Shown: one piece after another, positions 4,406 through 19,925 of the stretch
Position numbering within the stretch: the first letter of the stretch is position 1
How the letters are laid out: each line of letters starts with the position of its first letter
DNA from: a virus
Length of the DNA: 21,978 nucleotides
Reading direction: 5' to 3' (one strand)
IMG/VR virus record: IMGVR_UViG_3300005613_000454
Location: 1 to 21,978 of that record
Notes under the pieces: generated by a model
Seen by the model: only the letters and a program-made list of their open reading frames with translations
Databases searched by the model: none
Told to the model about the DNA's origin: nothing
Program-made: the position numbers and the translations under genes

Positions 4406-5419
4406 TTAGTCCTCTTCACCGCACTCGAATTCAAGAATTCCTGTGCGTGTTTCTGTACACCCGATCGGGTTTACGAAGATGTCACCGAATGTTTTCAGCT
4501 TGAAGCTGTGTGTAAAGAAGTCGCCTCCTGAACACTCATTTTTATAGTGAACATCGTAAATAACCCCTGGCAGGTAGAAACTGGGCATCGACCATCTGTG
4601 CTGATCCATATACTCAGCGGGCGCAGCCGCTGTGATTCCCTCATAGTATGCCTTCGTGACAAATGCGAGAGCACCGCGATTTATCATGTAGGTCATGAGG
4701 TCAGGATCATTAACTGAGTCAATGTTGAAGAGGTCAAAGCAGATATCCATACTTCCGTACTTTCCACGCCTGTTTTCGCAGCAATTCTCAAGCATGGCAG
4801 TCCAGCTGGACTCCCAGAGATTTGCCCCGGAAATAAGCATCGGACGCTTAAACCTGTTGCCAGCCGCTACGCGAGCGAAATAGGACATCAGGTTAGCATC
4901 CCAAAAAGCAGGCTGGATATAGGTGGTCGTTCCACTGACATCACCTTTCCCGGTGGTGACTTCGTTCTGGCCTACATTCGCATTCAGCACTGCCACGATC
5001 TGAGCTGCCCACCATTCATCGAGTTCAAGGGATGCTTTCAGGAAACCCTTTGCTACGACATCTTCGAAATCGAAGAAATTGTCCCTGAAGTCATTCTCTA
5101 CTACTTTGAATGATACACACTGCTCACGGTTCAGATAATACTCTTCAGTGTTAGTGGAGAGTTCTGTTCCGCTGATCGTACAGTCCACACACGAATCGGC
5201 AGAAACGTCACAGGCATTGATCCATCCGACATTTACTGACGGGTCTTTCTTCCCCTTCAGCGCTCCAAAACGAGCTGTCGTCTGGTCGATTATGCAGTTG
5301 ACGATCTCCGCCTCCGGTACATAATCTTCCCTCTGAATCCTGTCGTTCCAGATTTCATCGGCTTTCACCTGTATGTTCACCAACGTGGTTTCCGAAAAAA
5401 CTCCCGCTGTGATACTCAT
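4406..5419 (-). CDS. Major capsid protein
   Basis: A 337-residue protein beginning MSITAGVFSETTLVNIQVKA. The size, the position directly after a scaffold-like gene and the segment with repeated acidic/aromatic residues (FRDNFFDFEDVVAKGF) before a long helix fit a HK97-fold capsid subunit of a Bacteroidota phage. No protease or delta domain is evident in it; the scaffold is a separate upstream gene. It has about eleven cysteines, including DVSADSCVDC and ENCCENR, which is many for a capsid protein. It starts 6 bases after the scaffold stop, behind an A-rich leader with no Shine-Dalgarno site. It is the last gene of a unit with its own promoter and strong terminator, as expected for the most abundant virion protein. 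Confidence 0.75.
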   Translation of the reverse strand: MSITAGVFSETTLVNIQVKADEIWNDRIQREDYVPEAEIVNCIIDQTTARFGALKGKKDPSVNVGWINACDVSADSCVDCTISGTELSTNTEEYYLNREQCVSFKVVENDFRDNFFDFEDVVAKGFLKASLELDEWWAAQIVAVLNANVGQNEVTTGKGDVSGTTTYIQPAFWDANLMSYFARVAAGNRFKRPMLISGANLWESSWTAMLENCCENRRGKYGSMDICFDLFNIDSVNDPDLMTYMINRGALAFVTKAYYEGITAAAPAEYMDQHRWSMPSFYLPGVIYDVHYKNECSGGDFFTHSFKLKTFGDIFVNPIGCTETRTGILEFECGEED

Positions 5420-5425
5420 TGTTTC

Positions 5426-6340
5426 TTAACTTTTTTGAGCGGCATCCCAGGCTTGCTTGAGCTTGATCCTCCCCTCCCGATCACCCTTCTTCATCAAATC
5501 ATTCATCTGAACCAAATACTCATCTTTGCTTTTCGGGACCTGAATGTGCTGGCTTCCTCCCTGACCGTTGTTACGGTTTCCGGCATTACCAGCGGAGTCA
5601 CTTGCCTGAAAGTCATAACACTTACGTGCTATGTTGGCGGCAAAATCCTGAAACTTCACAGGATTGCCGTGACCGTCTTCTACACGGCTTCCGTCTTTCA
5701 TTACCAAGTGGTTCCCTTCATCATCCAGCTCGAAATCGTAGTCGTCGAACTTACGCAGGAAATCATCCTGGCGAGTTTGAGCAACATCGGCATTCTGGCT
5801 TATGATTGGTTTGAGACTGTTTCGAATGACCAGAGCATCGGACTTGACTCTACCAAGTCTTGTGTTGCGCTCCATGTTGGACTTAAATTGATCAAATTCC
5901 GTCTGAACTTTTTCCAGGTCGGCTTTCGGGACCCTGTTCTTTTCCAGGTCACGGTACAACGGATGCTTTTTAATATCATCCTCCGTGATCTGCGCTTTGC
6001 TCTCTGAAACGGCGTTCACCACTTCTTTTACAAGATCAAGACCCTGACTGTCGCTCTCCACGTCATAAAGTTCTTTAACCGACTTCTCAAGTTTCTCAAT
6101 AGCCTTGAAAGCACCCTTGTCATACTCGGCCTGTAAAGCCTTTTTGTCCGGTTTCGTGCTTTTCTTGATGTTGTCGACGCGAGATGTGTCACGATCGAGT
6201 ACCAGGTTGAGAGCATCGTCTTTAAGAACTAGCTCTTTGGAATCATCACCCGCAGGTTCAAATAAGAGTGCGGTTAGCTCTTCCTCCGTCATGTTTAACG
6301 TCTTCGTCAAGACACCTTTCAGCAGATCAATTGTTTCCAT
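5426..6340 (-). CDS. Scaffold-like capsid assembly protein
   Basis: A 304-residue, highly charged, mostly helical protein with long predicted coiled-coil stretches (about 95-190), including KKHPLYRDLEKNRVPKADLE and KVQTEFDQFKSNMERNTRLG. A flexible Gly/Asn/Gln-rich linker follows (about 250-265), then a short basic helical tail ending KLKQAWDAAQKS. Scaffolds typically combine a long coil with a small basic C-terminal capsid-binding helix. It lies immediately before the major capsid gene and overlaps the upstream LEM-like gene by 14 bases. No Ser protease motif is seen, so there is no sign of a protease-scaffold fusion. Confidence 0.65.
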   Translation of the reverse strand: METIDLLKGVLTKTLNMTEEELTALLFEPAGDDSKELVLKDDALNLVLDRDTSRVDNIKKSTKPDKKALQAEYDKGAFKAIEKLEKSVKELYDVESDSQGLDLVKEVVNAVSESKAQITEDDIKKHPLYRDLEKNRVPKADLEKVQTEFDQFKSNMERNTRLGRVKSDALVIRNSLKPIISQNADVAQTRQDDFLRKFDDYDFELDDEGNHLVMKDGSRVEDGHGNPVKFQDFAANIARKCYDFQASDSAGNAGNRNNGQGGSQHIQVPKSKDEYLVQMNDLMKKGDREGRIKLKQAWDAAQKS

Positions 6341-6698
6341 TTCTTACTGCTTGTATTTTTTCTAAATAAAGTTCGAATAACTCGGCTTTCTTAGCACCAG
6401 CGGGATACTCCACCTCATGCTCATTAAACCAATTCTTGAGCTGACTTACTGTCATGTCAGACTCATCAGGGATATCAACAATGTTTTCAACAGTATTTTC
6501 AACAGGGTTATCAACACTTTCCGGCTTGCCAACATCGAAGATTTTTTCAGGGGCAGGGATGACCGTTTCTTTCATGTCGTCATCGTCAACGACAACATAC
6601 CTGCGAGCCAGTCCCTTCTTTTTCATCACTTCCCATACGTCAGCAGTGACGTACATAGGGTCGTGTTCCGGGTATTTCCTACTCCTTATTGTTGGCAT
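6327..6698 (-). CDS. Small acidic protein with C-terminal LEM/HeH-like helix-extension-helix domain
   Basis: A 123-residue protein. The N-terminal part (MPTIRSRKYPEHDPMYVTAD, then WEVMKKKGLARRYVVV) is followed by a low-complexity acidic linker with the repeat PVENTVENIVDIPDE. The C-terminal about 35 residues (MTVSQLKNWFNEHEVEYPAG, then KKAELFELYLEKI) match the helix-extended loop-helix pattern of HeH/LEM/SAP-like domains. These are common in small phage proteins encoded next to capsid genes and usually bind nucleic acid or protein. It overlaps both neighbours (20 and 14 bases) and belongs to the capsid transcription unit. Function is unknown; a head-associated or head-completion role is likely from position. 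Confidence 0.55.
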   Translation of the reverse strand: MPTIRSRKYPEHDPMYVTADVWEVMKKKGLARRYVVVDDDDMKETVIPAPEKIFDVGKPESVDNPVENTVENIVDIPDESDMTVSQLKNWFNEHEVEYPAGAKKAELFELYLEKIQAVRNGNN

Positions 6699-7220: not shown

Positions 7221-7464
7221 CCTTATCATTCAGATTTGCCCAGATAAAATTATTTCGCACCCTATTATACGTCGTCAGCGCACTCTCCAAGGGATATTCT
7301 TCAGTAGATATCCCATACAGATCAAAGAAATCCTCTATTGCCTCTTCCAGGATCATCTTATTGCGTTCGCACATAGCGGTAACATGCGTAAACAACATAA
7401 GGTCCAGTGCACTACGCCTGTAATACGCCGGAATTCTACCTTCGTATTTCTTTACTTTTGGCAT
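7216..7464 (-). CDS. Hypothetical helical protein at the end of the glycosylation island
   Basis: An 82-residue protein beginning MPKVKKYEGRIPAYYRRSAL. I chose the ATG at 7464 because an upstream ATG (7491) would extend the overlap with the preceding gene from 29 to 56 bases and add a sequence unlike the rest. It is basic at the start and then helical (MLFTHVTAMCERNKMILEEA, then IEDFFDLYG). No family is recognised. Its stop codon is part of the -33 element of the capsid promoter, so it marks the boundary between the island and the capsid unit. Confidence 0.55.
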   Translation of the reverse strand: MPKVKKYEGRIPAYYRRSALDLMLFTHVTAMCERNKMILEEAIEDFFDLYGISTEEYPLESALTTYNRVRNNFIWANLNDKV

Positions 7465-8041
7465 AACGTAAATATTGTAATTTATTGTCAAAATCCATGC
7501 AGTCTCTCACATACGTGAACATCCCGGCTATTGCGTGTTTACGAAAATCCAGTTCATTCAGTCTGCGGTACAAGTTCCAGAGCTTACCGTACTTTTTCTT
7601 AAAATCAGTCGAGCTGACAATGCCATGAATAGCCATAATAATCGGAACACTCATTCGCAGGTGAAACTTGATAGCATAAATCTCACCCCTGTCACCATAG
7701 AACATTAGCGACTCTTTCTGCCTTTCTATTAATTTTCTTGTGTTCCTTCCATACAGAACATCACCTAAAAGAATTGTAGTCCATTCCCCCCAAAAGTCAC
7801 GAGTAGAGAAAAGCGTTGCCAGAGTTACCTCACTATTCTCAGGCTTAAAATATTTGTGTGAATTATTTATTATCTCCTGATCATTAGTTACTACTATTGA
7901 ATCTTCAAACTTGTTTTGAATATCCACAATCAAAGGAACACCATTAACAGGAACTAACTGCTTAACCTTTGGTAATATTATTCCCCTTTCCTCAGTAGCG
8001 TTCCATCTCGTTTGTGTTCCGGCTGCTAATATTAGGTTCAT
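7436..8041 (-). CDS. Sugar nucleotidyltransferase-like protein (GT-A-type NTP transferase)
   Basis: A 201-residue protein opening MNLILAAGTQTRW, the nucleotide-binding start of NTP transferases (LxAAGxGTR). This is followed by LPKVKQLVPVNGVPLI, which has the Pro-Lys and substrate-loop pattern, and by TILLGDVLYG, with the metal-binding Asp after a hydrophobic strand (about residue 94). The family transfers a nucleotide to a sugar phosphate to make an activated sugar. It is shorter than full RmlA/GalU-type enzymes (about 250-300 residues), and the second half is not typical, so it may be a minimal or altered enzyme. It overlaps the gene before it as ATGA and sits in a run with an epimerase and glycosyltransferases, consistent with supply of an activated sugar. 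Confidence 0.68.
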   Translation of the reverse strand: MNLILAAGTQTRWNATEERGIILPKVKQLVPVNGVPLIVDIQNKFEDSIVVTNDQEIINNSHKYFKPENSEVTLATLFSTRDFWGEWTTILLGDVLYGRNTRKLIERQKESLMFYGDRGEIYAIKFHLRMSVPIIMAIHGIVSSTDFKKKYGKLWNLYRRLNELDFRKHAIAGMFTYVRDCMDFDNKLQYLRYAKSKEIRR

Positions 8042-8295
8042 AACATCCCATTATTTTTGTCTAACTGTGTTTTTATTTCTTCCCATACCTGCTCATCATA
8101 TTCAAGTACCCAATTCCCAGAGGGAAAAAAGGCGATTATTTCTCCATTACTATTCAGATACGCTAAATGAATATAGCTTGCGTCAAAATATATCTCTCCT
8201 TCTGATTTCTTTGGTTCAGGTTGAGGGAGTCCAAGATTTTCAGCTTGTTCTACAGCTTCTTTATCTAAATCTTCCCAAATAATTTTTGATTTCAT
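8038..8295 (-). CDS. Hypothetical protein between epimerase and nucleotidyltransferase
   Basis: An 85-residue acidic protein: a helical N-terminus (MKSKIIWEDLDKEAVEQAEN), a Pro-rich linker (LPQPEPKKSEG) and a beta-like C-terminal half with NSNGEIIAFFPSGNWVLEYD. No family is recognised. It is joined to both neighbours by ATGA overlaps, so it is translated together with the sugar-nucleotide enzymes and may assist them. Confidence 0.6.
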   Translation of the reverse strand: MKSKIIWEDLDKEAVEQAENLGLPQPEPKKSEGEIYFDASYIHLAYLNSNGEIIAFFPSGNWVLEYDEQVWEEIKTQLDKNNGML

Positions 8296-9188
8296 AACAT
8301 TGTCTTTATTCCTTCCTTAAAAGGTCTGAATTTAACTCCTAACTGTTGTATCTTTTCCGAAGAAACATCGAACCAAAATATATCTCCCTCTAAAGGATCA
8401 GTGTATTCTACTTCTACTTCCCCGTATTCATCCATAAGTAAATCTGATAACTGTCCCACCGTTACTTTCTCCGAGGCTGCACAATTATAAACCTGTCCAT
8501 ACGTGCGGTTCTGTTTCCATGCTATCATATTAGCCTCTACAACATCTTCAACATGAGTAAAAACCCTCTGTTGCTCACCATCACCGTGAATAGTTATCCC
8601 TAATCTGTTTCTTATCCTGTCTCTAAAGATAGCTACTACACCACCAAGATCAGCATCAGTCTCTTGTCTTTCTCCGTAAACATGGAAATACCTTAGTATA
8701 GTGATGTTCATTCCATAAGCATATCGGAAATGCCTCACATAACTTTCCCCTGCTAACTTGGAAATCCCATAATAACTAACAGGCATAAGCCGTGTTCCTT
8801 CGTTTATCTCAGCAGTAACATTCCCGTAAACAGATCCCGTTGAGGCATGGACAAACTTCTTAACTCCATATTTCTGAGCAAGCTGTAAGAGCATTAGCGT
8901 CCCTCCACCGTTTACCTGTAAGTCTTTAACTGGATCTCTCAGACAGATGTTTTTCTTGCTTGCAGCGTTATGAAATATAACATCACAGCCTTTAAACTCA
9001 TTGTTGTTAGCTGCTAATTCATCCCAGTTGCTTACATCTACCTGACAAAACCTTGCTTTCTTTGGAATGTTCTCTAACTTCCCTGCTGAAAGATCATCGA
9101 ATATTATAACCTCGTGACCGTCTTTAATAAGTCTATCTGCGATATGTGAGCCTATGAAACCTGCCCCCCCTGTTACTATTGCTTTCAT
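8292..9188 (-). CDS. NAD-dependent sugar-nucleotide epimerase/dehydratase (extended SDR)
   Basis: A 298-residue protein with the full extended-SDR signature. The Rossmann motif TGGAGFIGSH is at residues 6-15, an acidic pair D31-D32 for NAD ribose comes after the second strand, and HNAASKK is near 73-79. STGSVYG (116-122) supplies the catalytic Ser/Thr, and Y140-x-x-x-K144 is the catalytic pair. The later LRYFHVYG and GDGEQQRVFTHVEDV segments are typical of the UDP-glucose 4-epimerase / NDP-hexose branch. It likely interconverts or dehydrates a nucleotide sugar in the cytosol using bound NAD. The exact substrate cannot be read from motifs. ATGA overlaps link it to both neighbours, which supports joint production of a donor sugar for the island's glycosyltransferases. 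Confidence 0.9.
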   Translation of the reverse strand: MKAIVTGGAGFIGSHIADRLIKDGHEVIIFDDLSAGKLENIPKKARFCQVDVSNWDELAANNNEFKGCDVIFHNAASKKNICLRDPVKDLQVNGGGTLMLLQLAQKYGVKKFVHASTGSVYGNVTAEINEGTRLMPVSYYGISKLAGESYVRHFRYAYGMNITILRYFHVYGERQETDADLGGVVAIFRDRIRNRLGITIHGDGEQQRVFTHVEDVVEANMIAWKQNRTYGQVYNCAASEKVTVGQLSDLLMDEYGEVEVEYTDPLEGDIFWFDVSSEKIQQLGVKFRPFKEGIKTML

Positions 9189-9409
9189 TGTATAAAATAT
9201 GTTAATACCGAGAGCAATCCCCCGGCAATGAATATAAGCGTTGTCTGATGAACCAGGGCCGTTTTATTTTGTCCATCCCAGTTCATTATAAGTGCCGTGT
9301 TCACCAGAGCCGTCGCTCCCAAGATACATGCAGGAATAAAAGCTTCATCCTGGATGAACTTGTACGGTTCCGCTACTTCCATACTCAAGACTGCGGCCTT
9401 GAACTGCAT
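9185..9409 (-). CDS. Small membrane protein with two predicted transmembrane helices
   Basis: A 74-residue protein beginning MQFKAAVLSMEVAEPYKFIQ. Hydrophobic segments lie at about 25-41 (FIPACILGATALVNTALI) and 53-72 (TLIFIAGGLLSVLTYFI), joined by a short polar loop NWDGQNKT. I chose the ATG at 9409, 4 bases after the upstream glycosyltransferase stop, over an ATG at 9460 that would overlap that gene by 47 bases. The stop is joined to the epimerase ATG as ATGA. It could anchor or assist the glycan machinery at the membrane, or be holin-like, but nothing in the sequence decides this. Confidence 0.6.
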   Translation of the reverse strand: MQFKAAVLSMEVAEPYKFIQDEAFIPACILGATALVNTALIMNWDGQNKTALVHQTTLIFIAGGLLSVLTYFIQ

Positions 9410-9413
9410 GTAG

Positions 9414-10343
9414 CTAATTGAGTCCGAGAACATTTCTTGCAGCATAATCATAACTTGCATATTTTAACGCCCAGTCAGTCCCATTATGTGCGAGTCTGTC
9501 CCGCTCATCTGGACTATTAACGAGCCGAAGCAGTGTCTCTTCAAATGTGTCTTTCGTAACCCATGCCACAGGCGGGGCAGGAATCTCAGTATCATGCTTC
9601 GCTCCATAAGTGATAACAGCACATCCCAGGTGGAGTGCTTCGATTCCCGATTTTCCGAGGGCAGGCCAGATATAATCCGGGTCCCTGAACTTGAACTTGT
9701 CTCTGTCATAGTGGTCTATTTGATCTACAAATATGTGTGCTGGTGCTTTTCTTCTGAGACATTCGTCCCATGATACACCAGTAATTATATCCAAATCTAC
9801 ATCCAGCAATCCGACAATTCTTTTGATATCCACAGTACCTTTCTCCCTGAACTTTGCCGGAACGAACGGACTATGCGCTACTGTCAGTTTCGTATATTTC
9901 TCCTTCCATATATCCCTCAAATCAAAAGGCTGGTAATACGTCTTCGTAGGCAGATCACCCCTGAAGTGCCGCTTACATGCCGTCGTCAGAACATCTATAC
10001 CCTCAAACTGCGGATTGTACTGTTCGGGATAACGTGCAAACCGACCATCAGTTATAATAATATGCACCTTGCCGTAATTCCTGAGTAAACGTTTCCATCC
10101 ATACGAGCCAAAGAACAGCTTTATCCTATCCCAGGTGATGCAGCTCACAATTATCAGGTGATCGCCTTCCTTCGGTATTCTCCTATACCCGAACTTAGCG
10201 TCAGGCACAAGGTAGTCCAACCCATGCTTGTTCCTATTCTCCCATACGGAAGTAACCTGACCGTACTTCTTCAGTCCGATCGCCAGTCCGCAGGCGTGAC
10301 CACCGCCACAGTCAACGCACGTCAATGTTATTCGCTTCGACAT
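9414..10343 (-). CDS. GT-B fold glycosyltransferase-like protein
   Basis: A 309-residue protein beginning MSKRITLTCVDCGGGHACGL. The C-terminal half contains HIFVDQI, then WPALGKSGIEALHLGCAVITYG, the nucleotide-sugar binding loop of GT4/GT1-type enzymes with the conserved Glu before a small, Gly-rich strand. Near the end, DERDRLAHNGTDWALK is the usual helical tail. GT-B enzymes use activated sugars in the cytosol or at the membrane. It is shorter than typical GT4 enzymes (about 350-400), mainly in the N-terminal acceptor domain. Its DQ-then-IEA layout resembles the other GT-B gene of the island at 11381-12283, so the two may be old paralogs. It overlaps the PP-loop gene by 32 bases. Confidence 0.72.
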   Translation of the reverse strand: MSKRITLTCVDCGGGHACGLAIGLKKYGQVTSVWENRNKHGLDYLVPDAKFGYRRIPKEGDHLIIVSCITWDRIKLFFGSYGWKRLLRNYGKVHIIITDGRFARYPEQYNPQFEGIDVLTTACKRHFRGDLPTKTYYQPFDLRDIWKEKYTKLTVAHSPFVPAKFREKGTVDIKRIVGLLDVDLDIITGVSWDECLRRKAPAHIFVDQIDHYDRDKFKFRDPDYIWPALGKSGIEALHLGCAVITYGAKHDTEIPAPPVAWVTKDTFEETLLRLVNSPDERDRLAHNGTDWALKYASYDYAARNVLGLN

Positions 10344-11400
10344 AACTTGCTATACAATAATCCAGCCACCATCTGCTGTATCTGATGCTGTCTGAAGGTT
10401 TAACGGTACTCATTTTGCCGTATCTCGTCGACTTAAACCATTCGTACATTTTCTTTAGCTCTTCGGGTTTTACTGTCCTGTGCCCGTTCGCCGTAACCTC
10501 ACCCAGTATTTCCAGTCTTTTGATATGCTCACATTCAGGTACGAAATGCCTGCATAGGTGCTCCGCCTGCCGTCCTTCATTATGCTCATACCCGGCAACG
10601 GAAGTGATGTACCTCCATGACCAGAACGGGTGAAACGAATACTTAGGCTCCCTGAATGCTGAAATCTGGTAGTAATACTGATGCCTGAAGTAAAACCGCA
10701 GCCTGTCTTTGAGCTTCGTCCTCTTCTTACGATGCGGTTCCAGCAGGTACGGACTTGTCAGCCTCATTGCGTCACTCACATTACCCCCGTAGCCTGAGAT
10801 ATATTGGATGTCCTCTTCGTTCCAGGTGTCAATGAAGTAATCATACCACTGGTTCACCGGAAACGCACACAGGCCATTAAAACGCTTATGGATATCCTTG
10901 AAATAATCAAAGTCATACTTCGGTTCCCATATAATGTAATTCGTGAAGCCCAGTGTTTTCATGATCTTCTCAAAGTTTTCGCCTTCGCCACCACATTCGA
11001 CAAACCAGTATTCACCAAGCCAGCTGTCACCTTTCTCTTCTCGTAACTCCTGAATAACCTTTGCTATAACACGGGAATCATATCCTGAGCTGGACCCTAT
11101 GACATGAATCTTTCCAGGCATCCATGCTTTCTTGATAGCTTTCTTCAGCTCGCTCCATATTCCGAATAACCTTCCTTTTGCCGGGATCAGGTTATACAGG
11201 AATTTCGTCAGCTCCGGGTGCTCCCGGTATGGAAGCAGGCGTGTCCCTGTAAACGGAGTCTTATTTTTCTGATACGGATAGTATAAATCAGGCGAGATAA
11301 ATACCCTCACCTTATCCGGCACTGTGTCGCTAAACTCAGAGGATATTACTGCATTCCCGCCGTACTGACGGTACTTCCAATCATAATGTAACGATGTCAT
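10312..11400 (-). CDS. Asparagine-synthetase-like PP-loop ATP-dependent ligase without glutaminase domain
   Basis: A 362-residue protein. GRLFGIWSELKKAIKKAW is followed by HVIGSSSGYDSRVIAKVI, where residues 104-109 (SSGYDS) fit the PP-loop SGGxDS that binds ATP pyrophosphate in the asparagine synthetase C-terminal domain. A second region, ISGYGGNVSDAM, lies where the family has GxGxDE; here the Asp-Glu pair is replaced by Asn-Val. A C-terminal segment with PFWSWRYITSVA resembles the family's PF-D/W-RR region. There is no N-terminal Cys2 glutaminase domain, so it would need free ammonia or another amine as acceptor. The family adenylates carboxylates and makes amides. It lies three genes from PanD among glycosyltransferases, so an amide-forming step in glycan decoration is plausible. 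The altered second motif leaves open a different or lost activity. Confidence 0.62.
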   Translation of the reverse strand: MTSLHYDWKYRQYGGNAVISSEFSDTVPDKVRVFISPDLYYPYQKNKTPFTGTRLLPYREHPELTKFLYNLIPAKGRLFGIWSELKKAIKKAWMPGKIHVIGSSSGYDSRVIAKVIQELREEKGDSWLGEYWFVECGGEGENFEKIMKTLGFTNYIIWEPKYDFDYFKDIHKRFNGLCAFPVNQWYDYFIDTWNEEDIQYISGYGGNVSDAMRLTSPYLLEPHRKKRTKLKDRLRFYFRHQYYYQISAFREPKYSFHPFWSWRYITSVAGYEHNEGRQAEHLCRHFVPECEHIKRLEILGEVTANGHRTVKPEELKKMYEWFKSTRYGKMSTVKPSDSIRYSRWWLDYCIASYVEANNIDVR

Positions 11401-12283
11401 AGATTTTATTCCATTGTTGTGCTACTGCTTTGTAACTATGTTTCTGGTGACACCACATCACTGATCCTATGCTTAAAGTGCTAAGATCGCCATTCAGCTC
11501 CCTGTATATCCGTTCAACCCATTTGTCAACATCCTTGTCCTCAGTGATCACCGGGCAGAGTTCGTCGATCTTTACTTCCGGGCGTATCCATGCCGCTACC
11601 GGGACACCGTAAGCCATTGCTTCGATTGCTGAGTTGCCATAAAACCCTACATTGAACTGATCGAAATATATCGTTGCCCTCTTCCGCTCCTTGATTACTC
11701 TGCTGAACGGTACGTTCTCAAGAATAAGAGTCTGCACATCCATAACCTCTTTCAGTCCTCCGAATATGTCATACACAAAATCCGTCCCTTTGACTTCCCT
11801 TCTGGAAGGTATGTGCATAAGAACAGGCGGGTCACTCCTGGTCCATTCCCGCTCCGTATCTGTGCACATAATAGGATGGGGCGTCCAGATATCCGAGAAT
11901 CCTGAATAACATAAGTCAGGGGTAAAAGCTGTCCTGACTATGGCATCCCGGTAATCTTCGACCTTGTATTTCCCGTACCCTCCAAATCTCTTATGCCTGA
12001 AGTGACTACCGGAAACAGTGATAACTATTGGCTTGTGCATGATTTTCAGTCCCAGGTATCCGTCTTTTGGCGGAACATCGCCCTTCAGGTGAACAATATC
12101 TGATTCATCGATCCTGCGCTGAACATCTTTCTTGCTCCATTTGGAATTATCAGGATGCCCATACGGATTGTAATACTTCCCGGTGAAAATCTTTATATCA
12201 TGGTCAGTATGCAGATCAATCGCTTCACAGAGCTTATGCCCTGACCCTGCGTAATCGATTTCAGATAGCATTGTAATCTTCAT
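11381..12283 (-). CDS. GT-B fold glycosyltransferase-like protein
   Basis: A 300-residue protein beginning MKITMLSEIDYAGSGHKLCE, which suggests an N-terminal Rossmann domain with a Gly-containing acceptor loop. The second domain starts near PPVLMHIPSRREVKGTDFVY, which is the usual start of the donor half in GT4 enzymes. The family signature is IYFDQFNVGFYG, then NSAIEAMAYGVPVAAW, with the conserved Glu in a donor-binding helix. It ends with a C-terminal helical tail. It is short for the family. ATGA joins it to the upstream GT-A gene, and it overlaps the PP-loop gene by 20 bases. It likely transfers a sugar from a nucleotide donor; the acceptor is unknown. Confidence 0.78.
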   Translation of the reverse strand: MKITMLSEIDYAGSGHKLCEAIDLHTDHDIKIFTGKYYNPYGHPDNSKWSKKDVQRRIDESDIVHLKGDVPPKDGYLGLKIMHKPIVITVSGSHFRHKRFGGYGKYKVEDYRDAIVRTAFTPDLCYSGFSDIWTPHPIMCTDTEREWTRSDPPVLMHIPSRREVKGTDFVYDIFGGLKEVMDVQTLILENVPFSRVIKERKRATIYFDQFNVGFYGNSAIEAMAYGVPVAAWIRPEVKIDELCPVITEDKDVDKWVERIYRELNGDLSTLSIGSVMWCHQKHSYKAVAQQWNKIYDIVTL

Positions 12284-12981
12284 AGCGATTTAATCTCTGA
12301 GAATTCAGGTATCGTATCGAGTATTGTCATATCAAATGGTTCAAGCTGATATGCCGTATATCCTGACAGGTTGCCAAATCCTTTTACGTCGAGCAATGCC
12401 CCGCCAACATCTTTAACACTAAAAACTTCCCTCTTCAGGAACTTTTGCTTTTTTAATCGTTGCATCATGATCCAGTCCAACCCTGCCCTTGCGTGGCTCC
12501 AGGGCCTTCCTCCCAGTGCTTTGAATGCTTTAGCTGACAGAAGTCTTCCCATGCCTATCGACTCCCCTCTCCTGTGATCTACCGAATACCCTGCCCAGTA
12601 TCCTGCCTCCCCTGTTTTGGAATTATAAAAATAACAGTCTCTGAATCCGGCAACATCAATACCTTTTATCAAAGCGTTCTGAAGTGTTTCAATTATCTTA
12701 TCATTCATAAAATCGTCGCTCCCCATGAGAATAAAACCGTCAGGCTTCCAGGCTATCCATGCTCCCATGATTGCCTGATTCCATTTCTTTGATAGCGGTT
12801 CATTCGGAGTCTCTGTATATCCAGCCCCTGCATCTAAGCACATATCCCTTGTCCTCACCCCTTCACTTCCAGCAATCATTGTCTGAATGCCATAATCCTG
12901 CCAGTATCTCTGTACAGATTTTAGGAATATTTTCGTTATCGGTTCCCTCTGCCAGATCGCCGTTATGATAGCAAACTTCAT
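12280..12981 (-). CDS. GT-A (family 2-like) glycosyltransferase
   Basis: A 233-residue protein beginning MKFAIITAIWQREPITKIFL, a first beta-strand and loop typical of family 2 transferases. Further on, SKKWNQAIMGAW is followed by a hydrophobic strand ending in the metal-binding acidic motif GSDDF (about residues 87-91). The catalytic half has GMGRLLSAKAFKALGGRPWS, similar to the acceptor loop of these enzymes. No transmembrane helix is seen, so it acts in the cytosol. Its ATG overlaps the PanD stop as ATGA and its own stop overlaps the next GT-B gene the same way, so PanD and two glycosyltransferases are translated as one coupled block. Confidence 0.75.
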   Translation of the reverse strand: MKFAIITAIWQREPITKIFLKSVQRYWQDYGIQTMIAGSEGVRTRDMCLDAGAGYTETPNEPLSKKWNQAIMGAWIAWKPDGFILMGSDDFMNDKIIETLQNALIKGIDVAGFRDCYFYNSKTGEAGYWAGYSVDHRRGESIGMGRLLSAKAFKALGGRPWSHARAGLDWIMMQRLKKQKFLKREVFSVKDVGGALLDVKGFGNLSGYTAYQLEPFDMTILDTIPEFSEIKSL

Positions 12982-13340
12982 CTGATCTCTGTGATCATAT
13001 TACGGTCGTCGGTAACTACAACTATCGGTTTGTCTGTGCGTGATAACTCGGAAATCGGATCACCGTACTTAAAACAGTTTACATGAACTCTGTCACCCGG
13101 CTGAAAGAAATTTGCCATAGCCCCGTTCATCTCTACTTGTCCGCTCATGTGATGGCCGGGCATAACATACGTCACCAGCCTGTGCGACTTGTTAATACCA
13201 TTCACCTCAACACGCTCATACGGGAATAGCCCCGCCGCATCCATCAATACCGGGTCCAGCGTCAGACTTCCTTCATAATCAACGCTTGCGTCAGTAACTA
13301 CGACTGACTTTAACTTAGATTTCAATACCTGCAATAGCAT
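12978..13340 (-). CDS. panD: Aspartate 1-decarboxylase (pyruvoyl-dependent), phage-encoded
   Basis: A 120-residue protein that aligns without gaps to the first about 90 residues of E. coli PanD as I recall it. The self-cleavage site YEGS puts Gly24-Ser25 at exactly the family position, giving a 24-residue beta chain and an alpha chain capped by pyruvoyl. Lys9, Tyr22, Arg54, Thr57, Tyr58 and the Asn72-Gly73-Ala74 loop are all present at family numbering. The enzyme converts L-aspartate to beta-alanine and CO2, normally for pantothenate and coenzyme A, and works as a tetramer in the cytosol. The alignment fixes the start at 13340, although it overlaps the upstream gene by 26 bases. No other pantothenate gene is present; the neighbours are glycosyltransferases, so beta-alanine may be needed for a glycan modification, or the gene may raise host CoA. 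Confidence 0.93.
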   Translation of the reverse strand: MLLQVLKSKLKSVVVTDASVDYEGSLTLDPVLMDAAGLFPYERVEVNGINKSHRLVTYVMPGHHMSGQVEMNGAMANFFQPGDRVHVNCFKYGDPISELSRTDKPIVVVTDDRNMITEIR

Positions 13341-13998
13341 ACTTTTGTTTTTTATATTCGATGAAAAATTCTTCCTGTGCTCGCATATACCTGGCCCTCT
13401 TCAGGCTTCCTATGGCTTTAAGTGTTACGCTTCCGCCTCCCAGATGCCTGACCAGTGAACTGCCTATAAGGGCATGCTTGATCCCGGCACACTTGAGCTG
13501 CACACCGTATACATTATCTGAATACCAGAACTGTACAGGCGTATCAAATCTGCCTATGTGCTCAAATACTTCCTGATCAGTGACAATACACCACCCCAGG
13601 AGCTGCCCTTTTTTTCCTATGTCATATCCTTCGACTACACCATTAAACACATACTTGGAGCTGGGACTGGCACTGAGATACCCATGCGCTTCCATTGCAT
13701 TAACGATATTTCTGGCCCAGTTTCTTTCGAAATAAAGATCATTATTACAAAACGCTACATACTGACTCTTACATAGGGTCCTGCCCAGGTTGAGGCATTC
13801 GTTATAATTGAATTCAAAGTCATAATACAATGTGCGCCCTATTTTCTGTTCTCTTGCATAACTCGCTTGCTCAATAGTTACAATATTCCCTATCGGATAA
13901 CTTGCATGCTTGACTGCTGACTTAATAGCATTGGCAGTCATTTCCCACAGCCTGCTGTCCCTACTATTGGCTACTATGACAATATCTATCATCGACAT
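13315..13998 (-). CDS. GT-A (family 2-like) glycosyltransferase
   Basis: A 227-residue protein starting MSMIDIVIVANSRDSRLWEM, with the first strand and loop of family 2 glycosyltransferases. FEFNYNECLNLGRTLCKSQY leads into the strand VAFCNNDLYFERNW, where NND stands at the DxD metal site (about residues 89-91). Later come GQLLGWCIVTDQEVFEHIGR, the usual acceptor-side strand and helix, and VRHLGGGS, which fits the His-Gly loop of the family. An in-frame ATG two codons after the first is an equally possible start. It overlaps the end of the basic 79-residue gene by 10 bases and the start of panD by 26. Confidence 0.78.
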   Translation of the reverse strand: MSMIDIVIVANSRDSRLWEMTANAIKSAVKHASYPIGNIVTIEQASYAREQKIGRTLYYDFEFNYNECLNLGRTLCKSQYVAFCNNDLYFERNWARNIVNAMEAHGYLSASPSSKYVFNGVVEGYDIGKKGQLLGWCIVTDQEVFEHIGRFDTPVQFWYSDNVYGVQLKCAGIKHALIGSSLVRHLGGGSVTLKAIGSLKRARYMRAQEEFFIEYKKQKYAIAGIEI

Positions 13999-14228: not shown

Positions 14229-14352
14229 TTTCCAAATTTTTAAGTTCTTGATCAAACTTCTCAAACTCCTTACATATTTTAATACAGTCCTTAACGAATC
14301 GCACAATAAGCGGAACTGTGAATATGTTTAGCTTCTTTAAACCTTTTCCCAT
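14149..14352 (-). CDS. Small helical hypothetical protein
   Basis: A 67-residue protein beginning MGKGLKKLNIFTVPLIVRFV, then an amphipathic helical stretch (KDCIKICKEFEKFDQELKNL) and a Ser/Gly-rich end. The ATG at 14352 lies inside the last codons of the upstream glycosyltransferase gene (16-base overlap). The last 80 bases overlap the next small gene in a different frame, and its Ser/Gly-rich tail there looks like run-on sequence rather than a folded part. The start region duplicates that of the next gene. No function is recognised. Confidence 0.4.
   Translation of the reverse strand: MGKGLKKLNIFTVPLIVRFVKDCIKICKEFEKFDQELKNLENGKRFKQISGCSTNGSSKTGNGESCG
14213..14352. repeat. 16-base direct repeat at two successive gene starts
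   Basis: The string TTAAACCTTTTCCCAT (plus strand) occurs exactly at 14213-14228 and again at 14337-14352, 124 bases apart. Each copy contains the ATG and first codons (MGKGL) of one of two overlapping small genes. Recombination between the copies would delete exactly the first gene's start and body. Confidence 0.9.
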
Positions 14353-14981
14353 ATCTCCGGGTCTTTTGGTGAATATTTCTGCCGCTGATCTACGGCCTCT
14401 ATTTCGATGCAGGTGCGGTTCATGATTTTTCCACACCTACCCAGTTTTTTTGCCATTATATATTTGCTCTTCATACCCTGCTCTTCAGATATTCCCAAGT
14501 TCATGAAGTCGTCCTTCCTGATAATGTAACATGCAACAGCCCTCTCAACGGGTGCTATAACCAAATCCCTGATCATCTGTTCCCTGCCAAGCGGTTTTAA
14601 TTTCCATGCTACATTCTCCCTACGCAGCATAACCAGCTTGTACTTTGTCAGACTTATGCCCCAGAAAAGTGATGTCAGCCACCCTTCACATGGAATGATA
14701 TCATTATCCAGCTGTACGATATAGTCGCCCTGAGCGATCTTTGCCCCGGTAAGCATTCCTCCCCAGTCACCATGATTGCTCTCCATCCTGACGTACCTTA
14801 TTTTGGATTTCCTCAGCCAGCTATGGTCAGCCATCCAGTGAAACCATTCCTTCGTACCGTCACTACTTGCATTATCGATTATGATATGCTCATAATCATA
14901 CCGGGTACGCCGGAAGACAGCATCGACTACCTGGGCTGTATATTCAAGCCTATTCCTGCAACGAGTGATAACGCTGATCAT
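14337..14981 (-). CDS. GT-A (family 2-like) glycosyltransferase
   Basis: A 214-residue protein with the family 2 order. MISVITRCRNRLEYTAQVVD is the first strand and loop, HIIIDNASSDGTKEW is the nucleotide-binding Asp-Asn-Ala-Ser-x-Asp-Gly-Thr signature (about residues 33-47), and YIVQLDNDIIP carries the DxD-type metal motif (about residues 89-94). It is short and lacks the long C-terminal extension of processive enzymes, so a single sugar transfer is likely. Its ATG overlaps the stop of the small MGCNC protein as ATGA. Confidence 0.88.
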   Translation of the reverse strand: MISVITRCRNRLEYTAQVVDAVFRRTRYDYEHIIIDNASSDGTKEWFHWMADHSWLRKSKIRYVRMESNHGDWGGMLTGAKIAQGDYIVQLDNDIIPCEGWLTSLFWGISLTKYKLVMLRRENVAWKLKPLGREQMIRDLVIAPVERAVACYIIRKDDFMNLGISEEQGMKSKYIMAKKLGRCGKIMNRTCIEIEAVDQRQKYSPKDPEIWEKV

Positions 14982-15138: not shown

Positions 15139-15747
15139 TCAGGTATCGAATCTTCCTGGTATATGGCAGACAAGGTATTTCCCGCCTTCAATACGTCCGT
15201 AGTTCTGGCTTGCATGCTTCAAGTTACGAATAAAATTCCAGTCATGAGCATAGTTGTCACGCTTATTCCACAATGCTATTTTCTTGTGTATCAGGTTCGA
15301 CGTGCCAGAATACCCTTTCTTATTCACCCTGCATGTCCTCAGCTTAAAATCCTTCGTATCCTGCCGGTATACCCAATCATCCATGTAATACCAGTCCTTC
15401 CCATCCAGCCCTTTCGCTATCGATTCAAGGTGCGTTTCCTCAAACGCATCGTCAATATCCAAGTAGCATATATACTCTCCCCTGGCTTCCTGAATGCCTT
15501 TGTTACGCACGTTCCCGCTCCATGTGGGTTGTTTAGTTATGTAGAACAGTCTGATCCTCTTATCCGTGAATGTACCCACTATCTTACAGGTCTTCTCACA
15601 GCCGTCAGCTACAACTATCAATTCCCAGTCCTGATACGTCTGACAAAGAACGCTATTTATCGCCCGGACAATCTTTCGATCCCGGTTCTTTGCTGCTTTC
15701 TTATATTCACCCAGATAACTGGGCATCACTATGCTAATCACAGGCAT
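15139..15747 (-). CDS. GT-A (family 2) glycosyltransferase
   Basis: A 202-residue protein with the standard family 2 layout. MPVISIVMPSYLGEYKKAAK starts the fold; AINSVLCQTYQDWELIVVAD (about 30-49) contains the S-x-x-x-Q-x-x-x-x-E-h-h-h-V-x-D signature. RNKGIQEARGEYICYLDIDD (about 81-100) is the conserved N-x-G-x-x-x-A-x-G-x-Y-I-x-x-L-D-x-D-D motif with the metal-binding Asp residues. It uses a nucleotide sugar, likely in the cytosol, and has no membrane helix. It is the first gene of the island and overlaps the head morphogenesis gene by 14 bases, so the island is joined directly to the head operon without its own visible promoter. Confidence 0.92.
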   Translation of the reverse strand: MPVISIVMPSYLGEYKKAAKNRDRKIVRAINSVLCQTYQDWELIVVADGCEKTCKIVGTFTDKRIRLFYITKQPTWSGNVRNKGIQEARGEYICYLDIDDAFEETHLESIAKGLDGKDWYYMDDWVYRQDTKDFKLRTCRVNKKGYSGTSNLIHKKIALWNKRDNYAHDWNFIRNLKHASQNYGRIEGGKYLVCHIPGRFDT

Positions 15748-16648
15748 CTTCTCTTCCCATATCGCATGCCAGCGTTGCCGAAATATACCTTATCGTATGG
15801 CGGCAATTGTACCTGCCACGTTCTATGAGGGGGTTATACGAATCATCACATTTCTTTCCTTTGGGTTTGCCTATCAGGTTTGGATCACATTTCCACTTAT
15901 TTGCCTCATCGGTATTAAACACCTTTCCGGCACGTTTACGACAAAACGGTCTGCTGGTATCTATCAGACTTCCTGTGTATATAAACCACTTCAGTCCCAG
16001 GCCATCAGCATAATGCTTATTTATAGCGGCATCGGTCTGGTTGAAAGTGTCATAAGCGAACTGCCTGTAATACCGCTCAAATGCTCCTGCCCTCTCCTGC
16101 GTTCCCACCATGATCTCTTTCATACCACGCAGATACTCGGAATATCCTTTCTTATTGGCAACACTCGAAGTAACATAATCCTTGACTTGCTGCCTCACTT
16201 CTGGCATCCGGGTGATGTTGTCAAGATAACCTCCTTTTATGATCTTCCCATCTTTGATGCCTATGCTCTCTTCGATAAAACGAACATTCTCCGTCAGGCT
16301 CTTTACCAGGTCACGGGCATCACTTCCAGTAAGTGCGGAATAATACCGCTCACTCAGAGGTGTCAGCTTGAGCATATCCAGACCATACTGTGTATTGATA
16401 GCTCTCAGAGACTCTTTGTCAAAGGAATCGAAAAACTGGTCCAGGCGTATAGCCATACGCATGTTTCCTACCGTAGGCTTGAGGTTGCCGTTCTCATCCA
16501 AAGAAAACTGTCCCATATAATCAGCAATGAGCGCAGTAAGGAAATCGGACTGTGCTTTGTCTACTTTCTTGGTAAGCCAGTCCAGCTTGGAAGTGATATA
16601 ATCATCCTTCCTCTTCCATAAATCCCGTAGCTGTATGTCGGTAGCCAT
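15734..16648 (-). CDS. Head morphogenesis protein (Mu F / SPP1 gp7-like minor head protein)
   Basis: A 304-residue protein with a long helical N-terminal part and a C-terminal Mu F-type domain. Residues about 228-243 read DTSRPFCRKRAGKVFN, and about 270-285 contain the PLIERGRYNCRHTIRYIS element with the conserved Arg, Cys-Arg-His residues. In phages such as SPP1 and Mu this protein binds the portal and helps head assembly or DNA delivery. It directly follows the portal gene (stop and start overlap as TAATG), the usual order, and precedes the glycosyltransferase island. Confidence 0.85.
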   Translation of the reverse strand: MATDIQLRDLWKRKDDYITSKLDWLTKKVDKAQSDFLTALIADYMGQFSLDENGNLKPTVGNMRMAIRLDQFFDSFDKESLRAINTQYGLDMLKLTPLSERYYSALTGSDARDLVKSLTENVRFIEESIGIKDGKIIKGGYLDNITRMPEVRQQVKDYVTSSVANKKGYSEYLRGMKEIMVGTQERAGAFERYYRQFAYDTFNQTDAAINKHYADGLGLKWFIYTGSLIDTSRPFCRKRAGKVFNTDEANKWKCDPNLIGKPKGKKCDDSYNPLIERGRYNCRHTIRYISATLACDMGREDACD

Positions 16649-18462
16649 TATTCTTCGTTACCTTCGTCGCCTTCCTTATCCTCTTCTTCAAACTTTGGCG
16701 GCTGCGTATTCTGCCCTTCAAGTTCCGTTGCTATCTCTTCCACCTTTGCATCCACTGTTTTGTTCTGCTTCCTTCTGTCCCATTCATAGAAATCAGGGTG
16801 CTCAAGAAATATCTCATCAAATATCCAGCCTATATTGTTGTACAGGACTTTCACCTTAAAAGGAACAGTATTGCTTGCCAGTGCTGACGCTATCTCTGCA
16901 TCCGTCTTCCCGGAGAACGGGTCGAAACTCTGTACGGTCTTATATACAGCAAACTCCACAGGGTTCTCTGCCGTATCGACCTTCATGATCTCGTCGTCAA
17001 TATTCCGCAGTATAGCATCCGGCACACCAGCATCCTGAGCGGCCTTACGATCAGCAATATAGTCGTCCTTTGACTTGAACTTGAAATCTTTAGAGAATGT
17101 CATTCTGACAATGAGACCTTTGTCCTTGCTTGTCACCCTTGCAATGATCTTAACGGTATGCTCCCAGTCCTTAGCAAAGCGCACACTGAGCGGATAAAGC
17201 GTGTCGTAAACATTGTCCAGGTCGATCCTCTTCTCTGTCGCTGTCGTAGCCACCTGATCCGCAGTGAAAACATCCGAGTTAAACACTGCTCCCATACACT
17301 CTTCCGTCAGGTACTCGATATACTGCCTCTGGAATTCAATCAGGGCCACTTCAGGGGTAATATACCGGGCCATGTTATCCAGGCTCAATTGCTCGACACT
17401 GTCTCTGGGAATAGGTACATAAATGATATCCTGGGCACTGGTATGAACATCAAAACCTTCACCCTTACATACCTTGCATTTTTCCACACTTCCCTCTTCA
17501 TAGATATATCCATTATTGCATTTAGGATTCGAGCATTTCTTGGCAGTAACAATCTTCTGAGGAAAAGCATGCAGGGCCATCGTCAAATCCATCTCTGAAT
17601 TCGCCTTGATTGATTTCTTGAGATAGGGAACGCAGTCATGATACGGACTGACATAAGTATGCCCGTCGGTGAATTCATCCCGCTTGTACCCTACCCTGAA
17701 TGCAGGGACCATATCCAGGTTGTGCGGCTCGAATATCTCTATCATGTAGAAATCACCCTCTTTCGTCTTGAAATAGAACACCCCGTCTATCTCCATCAGC
17801 ACACCAGGTTCCTCAATCTGCTTCTTCAGCCTGTCTTTCTCATCCTCATCAACAATCTGTACAGCCCTGATGGTCTGGTTCTTCATGTACATAGTGTAGT
17901 TCCCGCCGTTACAGTCAACCAGATATTGCAATACATTGTTGACATACTCAAACATCACCGCTTGGTGTGAATCAGATTCGTAAGGATAAGGCTGGGCAAT
18001 CTCTTCCATTGGGTCAAAGGCGTTCCATTCAACCACAAGAAAAGTATTCGGGTCTACGTCATTCAGTTCGATCCACCGTGTAGCCATCCACTCATCCAGG
18101 GACATAGTACCCCAGAATTTTTTCAGAATCTCTTCCAGCTCTTCGGCTTGTTTGTGCTGCTCTCCTTCAATATATGCCAGCACCCTGGTTTTACCATTAG
18201 ACCTGGGAACCTTCCGTTCCACAGAGGTGATGTTACTTACTACCGAAGGAATAATATGCTGAGTGATTTTCTTCCTCTGTTCAAAAGCTGTCTCGTCTTC
18301 ACGCATTGTAAACTGCTCCATCATATCATCCAGCCCTTCCCCGGTGACATAGGCCCGGTAATCATCAGCGAGCGTTGTGACCCGCTCATAATAGGGATGC
18401 TTCAGATCATTCGCTACTATATTGGCGAACAACTGCATCATCAATAATAAATTTTCTTCCAT
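16648..18462 (-). CDS. Portal protein with an internal Cys4 zinc-ribbon-like motif
   Basis: A 604-residue protein between the large terminase and the Mu F-like protein, the standard place of the portal. It begins MEENLLLMMQLFANIVANDL, has an acidic C-terminus, and its size is within the range of portals of Bacteroidota phages. The central region carries CSNPKCNNGYIY and then EKCKVCKGEGFD. The cysteines at 310, 315, 329 and 332 (C-x4-C-x13-C-x2-C) look like a DnaJ-type zinc ribbon, an insertion not found in classical portals. The portal forms the dodecameric ring through which DNA is packaged by the terminase. The call rests on gene order, size and overall composition more than on a sharp motif. 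Confidence 0.82.
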   Translation of the reverse strand: MEENLLLMMQLFANIVANDLKHPYYERVTTLADDYRAYVTGEGLDDMMEQFTMREDETAFEQRKKITQHIIPSVVSNITSVERKVPRSNGKTRVLAYIEGEQHKQAEELEEILKKFWGTMSLDEWMATRWIELNDVDPNTFLVVEWNAFDPMEEIAQPYPYESDSHQAVMFEYVNNVLQYLVDCNGGNYTMYMKNQTIRAVQIVDEDEKDRLKKQIEEPGVLMEIDGVFYFKTKEGDFYMIEIFEPHNLDMVPAFRVGYKRDEFTDGHTYVSPYHDCVPYLKKSIKANSEMDLTMALHAFPQKIVTAKKCSNPKCNNGYIYEEGSVEKCKVCKGEGFDVHTSAQDIIYVPIPRDSVEQLSLDNMARYITPEVALIEFQRQYIEYLTEECMGAVFNSDVFTADQVATTATEKRIDLDNVYDTLYPLSVRFAKDWEHTVKIIARVTSKDKGLIVRMTFSKDFKFKSKDDYIADRKAAQDAGVPDAILRNIDDEIMKVDTAENPVEFAVYKTVQSFDPFSGKTDAEIASALASNTVPFKVKVLYNNIGWIFDEIFLEHPDFYEWDRRKQNKTVDAKVEEIATELEGQNTQPPKFEEEDKEGDEGNEE

Positions 18463-18464
18463 TT

Positions 18465-19925
18465 TTATCTGTATTTACTGAAATAATGAGCAAATGCCTC
18501 AGTTATAAAATAATCGAAACTATCAGAGGTATGACCATACTTTTCATACGACTGCCCTGTTTCCGGGTCCGTGATACGGGTCTTCATCTTTTTTCCATCC
18601 GCATCTTCCTTGAGATATTCGAAGTCGGCTATTGTATTTCTGCATTGCTTGTCAATCAATATACGAATATCGTACTGGTTATCAAAAATATCGTTTGCGA
18701 AATCTCTTCTATCTACGACCATAGGTGCTGCCCTTGCTACCCTTCTGCTATAATTATTCAGTAAATCATACAACACCCCTTCTATCAAATCGAAATCGTT
18801 CCTTCGTCCTCTCGTGCTCCTGCTCGCCCCTGATGGATCACCGTAAAAAAATAACCCTGCCTTTGCCTGCTCACCCCACTTATTCTTAAACACTTTAGCT
18901 ATGCGCTCCGTCGTATTATCAGGCGACGGCAAGCAAAACTCATCGAAACACCGCACTTCCCACCACTTCTCTTCGTGCTTTATCTGCCAGCATGTGATCG
19001 TCATATAAGGAACGACGTTGAAGTCGAAACTTATATGTATCGGTTCTCCTGGGATATGTTTGACCTCTCCTGTGTGCGCCGTCCTGTCGAATGAACTGTA
19101 AAACTCTCCCCCGGCCTTCACAAACGGATTCGAATATATCAGCCTCTTCCCGCTCTCTTTCAGCTTGCCTTCCCTGTCCAGGTGCTCCTTGATCAGCCCT
19201 TCGATATGCCCTTCCGGCAGATTCTCCTGATTGTGATATGTGGAGCATATACTTACACATTTGTCGTCCGCTTCATATCTGAAAAAATCATTCTTATCGT
19301 AAATATGTGACTGAATCTCGTCTTCATATTCATCCAGCCTAAACCATTCGTTGATCCAATCCACCTTCGCCGGAGTCGTTCCAATGTACATCGGTGTCAC
19401 CATCCGCCCACCAAAATTCATCCCTTCCTGACGAAGCCTGTGCAGGATAACCTCCTTCACGGCCTCTTCTTTCGTATCTTTCGTTTCGTCGAGTATTGCC
19501 CATCCTATTTCTTTTCCTTCGTGTGCTTTATAATTATCGAGCGAAGCCTTGAAAACCACTGCACCATTTCTGAAGCTAATAATACTGTCGTAACGGTCGA
19601 AGTTGTGCCACTCAAGATTAAAGCCCTTCGGCGGAGCCTGACCAACAACATAGTCCCGCCCTTCAACCATGCCGAAATAATCACGCCAGGTATCACGTAT
19701 TCTCTTGAGAGTCGACGTATTGAGCTGTTCGTAAGTGTTTGCTCCAATGAAGCCCGTAACATGAGGGTAGTTACGGACAAAATCCGCAGATATGACACCC
19801 TCCAAAAATGTCTTACCGCTTCCAGTGCCTCCCATGAACAGGTTGATCCTGTTAGGACTGTATAGGATGTATTCTTGCGGTTCACTGAGGTTCAGTTCTT
19901 TTTCTTCTCTCAATCTTAACATCAA
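18465..19925 (-). CDS. terL: Terminase large subunit (packaging ATPase/nuclease)
   Basis: A 486-residue protein with a full terminase layout. Walker A GGTGSGKT is at residues 32-39 and Walker B WAILDET at 142-148 (Asp146, catalytic Glu147). The C-terminal RNase H-like nuclease has HISFDFNVVP (Asp301), FFYGDPSG (Asp363) and TSDSFDYF near the end (Asp468/Asp471). It drives DNA into the prohead and cuts the concatemer. The start at 19925 overlaps the small subunit gene by 44 bases; the next Met follows directly, and the residues after it (LSEPQEYILYSPNRINLFMG) are needed before Walker A. It is 2 bases from the portal start. Confidence 0.96.
   Translation of the reverse strand: MMLRLREEKELNLSEPQEYILYSPNRINLFMGGTGSGKTFLEGVISADFVRNYPHVTGFIGANTYEQLNTSTLKRIRDTWRDYFGMVEGRDYVVGQAPPKGFNLEWHNFDRYDSIISFRNGAVVFKASLDNYKAHEGKEIGWAILDETKDTKEEAVKEVILHRLRQEGMNFGGRMVTPMYIGTTPAKVDWINEWFRLDEYEDEIQSHIYDKNDFFRYEADDKCVSICSTYHNQENLPEGHIEGLIKEHLDREGKLKESGKRLIYSNPFVKAGGEFYSSFDRTAHTGEVKHIPGEPIHISFDFNVVPYMTITCWQIKHEEKWWEVRCFDEFCLPSPDNTTERIAKVFKNKWGEQAKAGLFFYGDPSGASRSTRGRRNDFDLIEGVLYDLLNNYSRRVARAAPMVVDRRDFANDIFDNQYDIRILIDKQCRNTIADFEYLKEDADGKKMKTRITDPETGQSYEKYGHTSDSFDYFITEAFAHYFSKYR

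Follow-up and report, generated by a model that had tools for sequence, protein, structure and literature searches.

The panD gene and the cassette that surrounds it

The window, that is the whole stretch of DNA analysed here, is a linear fragment of 21978 bases from an IMG/VR virus record. Its phage origin is indicated by PHROG matches to the small and large terminase subunits and to the portal protein. At positions 12978-13340 of the minus strand, an ORF of 120 amino acids starting with ATG encodes PanD, the pyruvoyl-dependent aspartate 1-decarboxylase. The terminase, portal and MuF genes are located upstream of panD on the same strand. It shares 26 bases with the glycosyltransferase gene upstream (13315-13998) and the 4 bases ATGA with the gene downstream (12280-12981). 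The features of the region are listed below, together with their counterparts in L068, a syntenic contig, and in other contigs.

18465..19925, minus strand: terminase large subunit (phrog_2, E=2.4e-20)
16648..18462, minus strand: portal protein (phrog_7376, E=4.7e-19)
15734..16648, minus strand: MuF / SPP1 gp7-like head protein, the gene before the cassette (PF04233, E=3.5e-4, below cut-off; conserved in related contigs)
15139..15747, minus strand: GT2 glycosyltransferase that opens the cassette after MuF (PF00535, E=5.6e-17; conserved in L035, L043, L046 and L068)
14337..14981, minus strand: GT2 glycosyltransferase (PF00535, E=3.6e-19)
13315..13998, minus strand: GT2-like glycosyltransferase, directly upstream of panD (PF00535, E=8.2e-5, 23.0 bits, just below the 23.3 cut-off; 60% to L068 4595-5275)
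12978..13340, minus strand: PanD, 120 aa, with predicted cleavage at Gly24-Ser25 (PF02261, AF2/PDB match, syntenic homologue in L068)
12280..12981, minus strand: glycosyltransferase-like protein, directly downstream of panD (61% to L068 6423-7124; 34% to L043 10265-10993)
11381..12283, minus strand: probable GT4-type glycosyltransferase (weak PF13692, E=0.024; 65% to L068 7121-8020)
10312..11400, minus strand: 362-aa protein with SSGYDSR, a PP-loop-like motif invariant in three homologues; putative ATP-dependent ligase candidate
9414..10343, minus strand: probable GT4-type glycosyltransferase (its 63% L068 homologue matches PF13524 weakly, E=0.0012)
8292..9188, minus strand: NAD-dependent nucleotide-sugar epimerase/dehydratase (PF01370, E=3.4e-57; 79% to L068)
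7436..8041, minus strand: probable sugar nucleotidyltransferase (N-terminal LAAGxxTRW...K; 65% L068 homologue with weak PF12804, E=0.022)
4406..5419, minus strand: putative major capsid protein, encoded beyond the cassette (assigned solely by position; L068 homologue at 76%)

The cassette, flanked by the MuF and capsid genes, thus contains about six glycosyltransferases together with an epimerase and a probable nucleotidyltransferase. The occurrence of a nucleotide-sugar enzyme and of glycosyltransferases in one operon is based on the PF01370 match and on several GT2 matches, the nucleotidyltransferase match being weak. When searched together with its neighbours, the product of 13315..13998 reaches 23.6 bits with PF00535. 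The product of 12280..12981 has no Pfam match in its window copy; its homologue in L043 (10265-10993) matches PF00535 with E=6.1e-9. No PHROG match was obtained for the putative capsid protein, and the window showed no recognisable gene for the synthesis of amino sugars. A small protein encoded at 8038-8295 (minus strand) adjoins the epimerase, and its L068 counterpart (6181-6426) directly follows PanD.

The 362-aa protein belongs to a family with invariant SSGYDSR and HPFW motifs, two copies of which are present in L068 (8001-9095 and 9975-11084). A scan for more of its relatives returned L068 alone, and a scan for relatives of the downstream glycosyltransferase (12280-12981) found none. An identity as PP-loop ligase is not claimed for this protein: it has no match in Pfam or in a sequence search of the PDB, its AF2 model is poor (pLDDT 41) and a fold search on that model meaningless, and hhalign to a PP-loop protein gives a probability of 8% only.

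PanD itself matches PF02261 over residues 1-116 (E=3.6e-32, 111.1 bits for a Pfam gathering cut-off of 25). Its AF2 model (mean pLDDT 95.3) recovers the double-psi beta-barrel of PanD; in a Foldseek comparison with the PDB, the best 40 matches are all PanD entries, with a top TM of 0.93, and the rmsd from E. coli PanD is 1.4 A. With the NCBIfam panD equivalog, TIGR00223, the protein scores 77.4 bits, under the cut-off of 106, which the L002 and L003 phage PanDs likewise miss. A profile search for PanC (PF02569) found nothing in the window, L068, L043 or L049. The first-pass annotation had placed a PanD gene at this position, coupled to glycosyltransferase genes in a phage head operon and away from pantothenate genes, and had proposed a PF02261 search. 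The ORF, the profile score, the fold, the overlaps on both sides, the portal and terminase matches and the lack of PanC in the window bear it out on these points. The window protein is a genuine yet diverged PanD, carried by a real phage.

Active-site residues and predicted processing

In the family numbering, which was checked against M. tuberculosis PanD (2c45), alignment confirms K9, Y22, G24-S25, R54, T57, Y58 and N72-G73-A74 in the window PanD, all as first listed from the sequence. Among these residues, T57 has a role in PanD activation (PMC3975893), and Arg54 is linked to substrate specificity, its loss inactivating the M. tuberculosis enzyme (PMC3314653, PMC6969166). However, the accompanying statement that every catalytic residue is kept was too strong. 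The published list of strictly conserved PanD residues includes His11, Ala75 and Ile86 (PMC3314653). At these positions the window PanD carries Lys11, where nearly all others have His, Met75, usually Ala, and His86, usually Ile. Lys11 and His86 are found in the window and L068 proteins only, out of 40 aligned PanDs (0/38 of the others).

For E. coli PanD, an unprocessed crystal form of the H11A variant is described by the title of PDB entry 1pt1. Conservation of His11 is nevertheless not absolute, since Francisella PanD (3oug) has Ser11 and is cleaved. Setting these two structures against each other, self-cleavage of the window PanD at Gly24-Ser25 would be likely, not certain. The earlier prediction that the protein should self-cleave, resting as it did on the overstated claim of complete conservation, therefore went too far in view of H11A, and it keeps the support of the Francisella enzyme. 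As read from the alignment, the H11K, A75M and I86H changes make both processing and substrate uncertain.

Related contigs and PanD in other phages

L068 (IMGVR_UViG_3300035698_001761, 43967 bases) comes from a different metagenome. Its gene order is that of the window with a few insertions, PanD included. From the head side, the portal (66%), MuF (69%) and three glycosyltransferases (65, 61 and 60%) come first. PanD (52-54%) is next and precedes a small protein, then a glycosyltransferase (61%) and a GT4-like protein (65%). Beyond these lie the homologue of 10312-11400 (55%), a second GT4-like protein (63%), the epimerase (79%) and the nucleotidyltransferase (65%); genes of the capsid region reach up to 76%. 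L068 PanD matches PF02261 with E=5.2e-30, retains K9, Y22, G24, S25, R54, T57, Y58, N72 and G73, and its gene shows tight overlaps with its neighbours as in the window. Comparison of the two PanDs gives pN 0.34 and pS 0.70, that is a dN/dS of about 0.23 with dS near saturation. In view of this ratio and of the synteny, panD has been kept by selection and long retained in the glycosyltransferase cassette. The chimeric assembly that had been feared initially is very unlikely, because a PanD homologue stands at the same place in L068. The L068 cassette also contains a rhamnosyltransferase (PF11316), a methyltransferase and a formyltransferase (PF00551), which are typical of tailored sugars.

More distant relatives, found by their terminase, have the first glycosyltransferases in common with the window, and PanD is missing. 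In L043, the flanking glycosyltransferases are as in the window and an unrelated 82-aa ORF occupies the PanD site. L046 has a short glycosyltransferase cassette and L049 has the head genes without a cassette; PanD was not found in any of these three contigs. Thus, PanD goes with the more elaborate cassettes.

Concerning the host, a strong Shine-Dalgarno motif precedes 0/28 of the window genes (4% expected at random positions), and the closest bacterial PanDs are from Bacteroidales, L068 PanD being 42% to a Phocaeicola record. A Bacteroidota host is suggested, and only suggested because scans of the genome collection with the terminase and with a two-member PanD alignment gave no host or prophage.

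A single-sequence scan of IMG/VR with the window PanD returned no relative. Queries with alignments were needed, and these yielded about 40 PanD loci, which fall into about 20 groups. Phage PanD is thus no rarity, and two isolates have it annotated, Rhodococcus/Gordonia phage Jace (gp87) and Achromobacter phage 2-1 (panD). The first-pass annotation knew of no characterised phage PanD; none was indeed found in the open-access literature, although the gene is annotated in these isolates and occurs in many IMG/VR contigs. K9, G24, S25, T57, Y58 and G73 are kept in 25/25 aligned phage PanDs. The PanD tree has 120 columns and few resolved deep nodes, and only two of its groupings are used here. The first is the window-L068 pair (support 0.998), on a long branch. 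The second is a seven-member phage clade (0.986) with Arg54 replaced by His and Ala74-Ala75 by Pro-Pro (L002, L010, L059, L060, L061, L063 and L064). Since R54A inactivates M. tuberculosis PanD (PMC6969166), members of this clade may use another substrate.

Four records filed as phage, L005 (MT839897), L004 (CAKLQH020000007), L053 (OR848172) and L054, probably reflect host contamination. L005 and L054 look bacterial, with panC-panD, and so does L004, where panD accompanies ribosomal L25 (rplY) and pth; MT839897, L054 and CAKLQH were treated as bacterial in the tree.

Of the 21 other phage records with PanD, one contains GT2 glycosyltransferases, and these lie at a distance of about 40 kb or more from the PanD gene. 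PanD beside glycosyltransferases is therefore specific to the window lineage, and a general linkage in phages was rejected: the search for such pairs, advised at the outset, succeeded with L068 and gave nothing in the 21 other records. Other settings were observed. In L008 (8641-10522), a 173-aa PanD with a C-terminal extension, common to its close relatives L007, L009, L011 and L013, directly follows a gene of the PLP-dependent beta-eliminating-lyase type (PF01212). In L028 (8851-10327) and its relatives L026, L030 and L034, PanD comes after a ribonucleotide reductase small-subunit gene. Outside phages, plasmid p184_1 of Bradyrhizobium sp. 184 (L077 1-545) has an aspartate 1-decarboxylase gene between bioB and an 8-amino-7-oxononanoate synthase gene, a non-pantothenate setting.

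Three further contigs carry PanD close to genes related to DNA modification. In L067 (IMGVR_UViG_3300005095_000172, 10001-13616), the order is PanD, class II glutamine amidotransferase, ADDT (PF18724), 5-hmdU DNA kinase 2 (PF18747) and amidoligase (PF12224). This operon may represent a thymidine-hypermodification cassette using beta-alanine, as predicted from its gene content. In L065 (IMGVR_UViG_3300030503_000573, 8097-13275), PanD directly follows an FAD-dependent oxidoreductase gene (PF01266) and ADDT is found about 2 kb downstream. In L059 (IMGVR_UViG_3300032320_001881, 9132-10369), a PP-loop gene (QueC/Asn-synthase-like) overlaps the start of PanD, here of the R54H clade, by one base. The company of ADDT, HMUD2, amidoligase or PP-loop genes suggests that beta-alanine can be a phage building block outside CoA.

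Possible uses of the PanD product

The reading that we prefer, tentatively and with a confidence slightly short of even, is that a diverged PanD works in a phage glycan-assembly cassette, where beta-alanine or a close amine is a glycan building block and is not made mainly for CoA. In such a model, PanD would probably cleave itself at Gly24-Ser25 to form its pyruvoyl cofactor, and the processed enzyme would decarboxylate aspartate, its presumed substrate, to beta-alanine. The latter, or a closely related amine, would most likely be used within the cassette to decorate, as a substituent, the glycan made by the phage, to whose sugar it could be joined by a putative ATP-dependent ligase or transferase. 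The glycan would then most likely be put on the virion or on another late phage target. The conserved position of PanD within the sugar-gene set of two distant viruses argues that the product is probably a sugar-coat building block and not a vitamin precursor. It should be kept in mind that a gene can occupy a variable cassette without functional coupling.

PanD ordinarily supplies beta-alanine to the pantothenate/CoA pathway. Hence, the phage gene could be a CoA auxiliary metabolic gene: PanD would raise beta-alanine, host PanC would convert it to pantothenate and more CoA would aid infection. The supply of beta-alanine may plausibly limit the pathway, in which case PanD alone could suffice, and a phage PanC is not strictly needed if the host supplies the enzyme. 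Moreover, most phage PanDs have no glycosyltransferase neighbours and some of them could serve CoA. Against this, pantoate ligase (PanC) is missing from the window, L068, the relatives checked and the phage PanD records, except for the bacterial panC-panD pair of L054. In addition, the place of PanD in a late glycan cassette is conserved, and PanD is missing from relatives with smaller or no glycosyltransferase cassettes. Glycan decoration and host CoA were the two uses envisaged in the first-pass annotation. The former has gained support from synteny and from the sugar-tailoring genes of L068, the latter nothing beyond the usual role of the enzyme. A CoA boost is thus the weaker of the two, and we consider it unlikely.

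Alternatively, the PanD fold would be kept for the decarboxylation of another amino acid, the resulting amine being used in the cassette. Positions 11 and 86, both given as conserved or as close to the active site, carry in the window and L068 the Lys and His that are unique among the 40 PanDs, on a long branch (0.998), and the window PanD falls below the panD equivalog cut-off. There is also a precedent, as phage AdoMetDC homologues have become decarboxylases of ornithine or of arginine (PMC9992855, PMC10407285). However, the specificity residue Arg54 is kept, as are K9, T57, Y58 and N72, and a changed substrate seems improbable.

It may also be imagined that beta-alanine is placed on a modified phage base, with the glycosyltransferases acting on DNA too. 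PanD does accompany ADDT in the phage contigs L067 and L065, joined in L067 by 5-hmdU kinase and amidoligase, and directly follows a PP-loop gene in L059. Yet neither the window nor L068, with its 44 kb, yielded an ADDT, 5-hmdU kinase (HMUD2) or thymidylate-synthase-like gene, while the same ADDT and HMUD2 searches were positive in L067 and L065. In the window and L068, beta-alanine therefore most likely goes into a glycan. The window is a fragment, so DNA-modification genes could lie outside it. A role in DNA modification is considered very unlikely. Finally, an inactive, decaying passenger or a chimeric assembly is highly improbable, for despite three changed positions that are usually conserved and the unprocessed E. 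coli H11A zymogen, the frame is open, the fold conserved, selection purifying, the synteny found in a separate metagenome contig and the Ser11 Francisella PanD cleaved.

Returning to glycan assembly, a bolder proposal would be that the K11/H86 subfamily makes beta-alanine or a related amine specifically for a virion glycan, in which case no earlier pyruvoyl decarboxylase would be devoted to the sugar coat of a virus; in this strict form it is rather doubtful. PanD as an enzyme kind and its annotated phage copies are already known. The new elements are the setting in a glycan cassette, the K11/H86 subfamily and the parallel to cassettes for DNA modification. PanD is regarded as an enzyme of a vitamin pathway and a lone phage panD is normally filed as a CoA auxiliary metabolic gene, whereas the cassette placement described here and the DNA-hypermodification neighbours elsewhere suggest a use of beta-alanine by phages for chemical decoration. 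If so, the annotation of lone panD genes in viral metagenomes would change and, considering the ADDT-linked PanDs, beta-alanine would recur as a building block in the chemistry of both phage surfaces and phage DNA.

As compared with known systems, the window PanD shares with the bacterial enzymes (M. tuberculosis 2c45, E. coli 1ppy, Phocaeicola/Bacteroidales) the double-psi barrel, G24-S25, K9, Y22, R54, T57, Y58, N72 and G73. It differs from them by an identity of about 30-45%, by K11, M75 and H86, and by its context, a head operon with glycosyltransferases and no panC partner. The PanD homologues of Jace (gp87) and Achromobacter phage 2-1 also lack pantothenate partners nearby, but they are only 31-33% identical to the window protein and lie among DNA-metabolism or early genes, not glycosyltransferases; that of Achromobacter phage 2-1 moreover has His at positions 54 and 72. 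In mycobacteriophages Che8 and Rita, the virion is known to be glycosylated by phage glycosyltransferases, according to the passages of PMC11256854 that cite them. These tailed phages, whose capsid may bear a glycan, resemble the window in their glycosyltransferases. The same passages report no PanD, and the window cassette lies inside the head operon. CmoA was not found above cut-off in the PanD phage records or in L068. The CmoA-CmoX-CmoY system offers a parallel to the proposed use, an amino acid serving as a phage building block through an ATP-dependent ligase; unlike the glycan substituent envisaged here, it acts on DNA and with glycine, which CmoY joins to 5-carboxymethylcytosine (PMC12783734).
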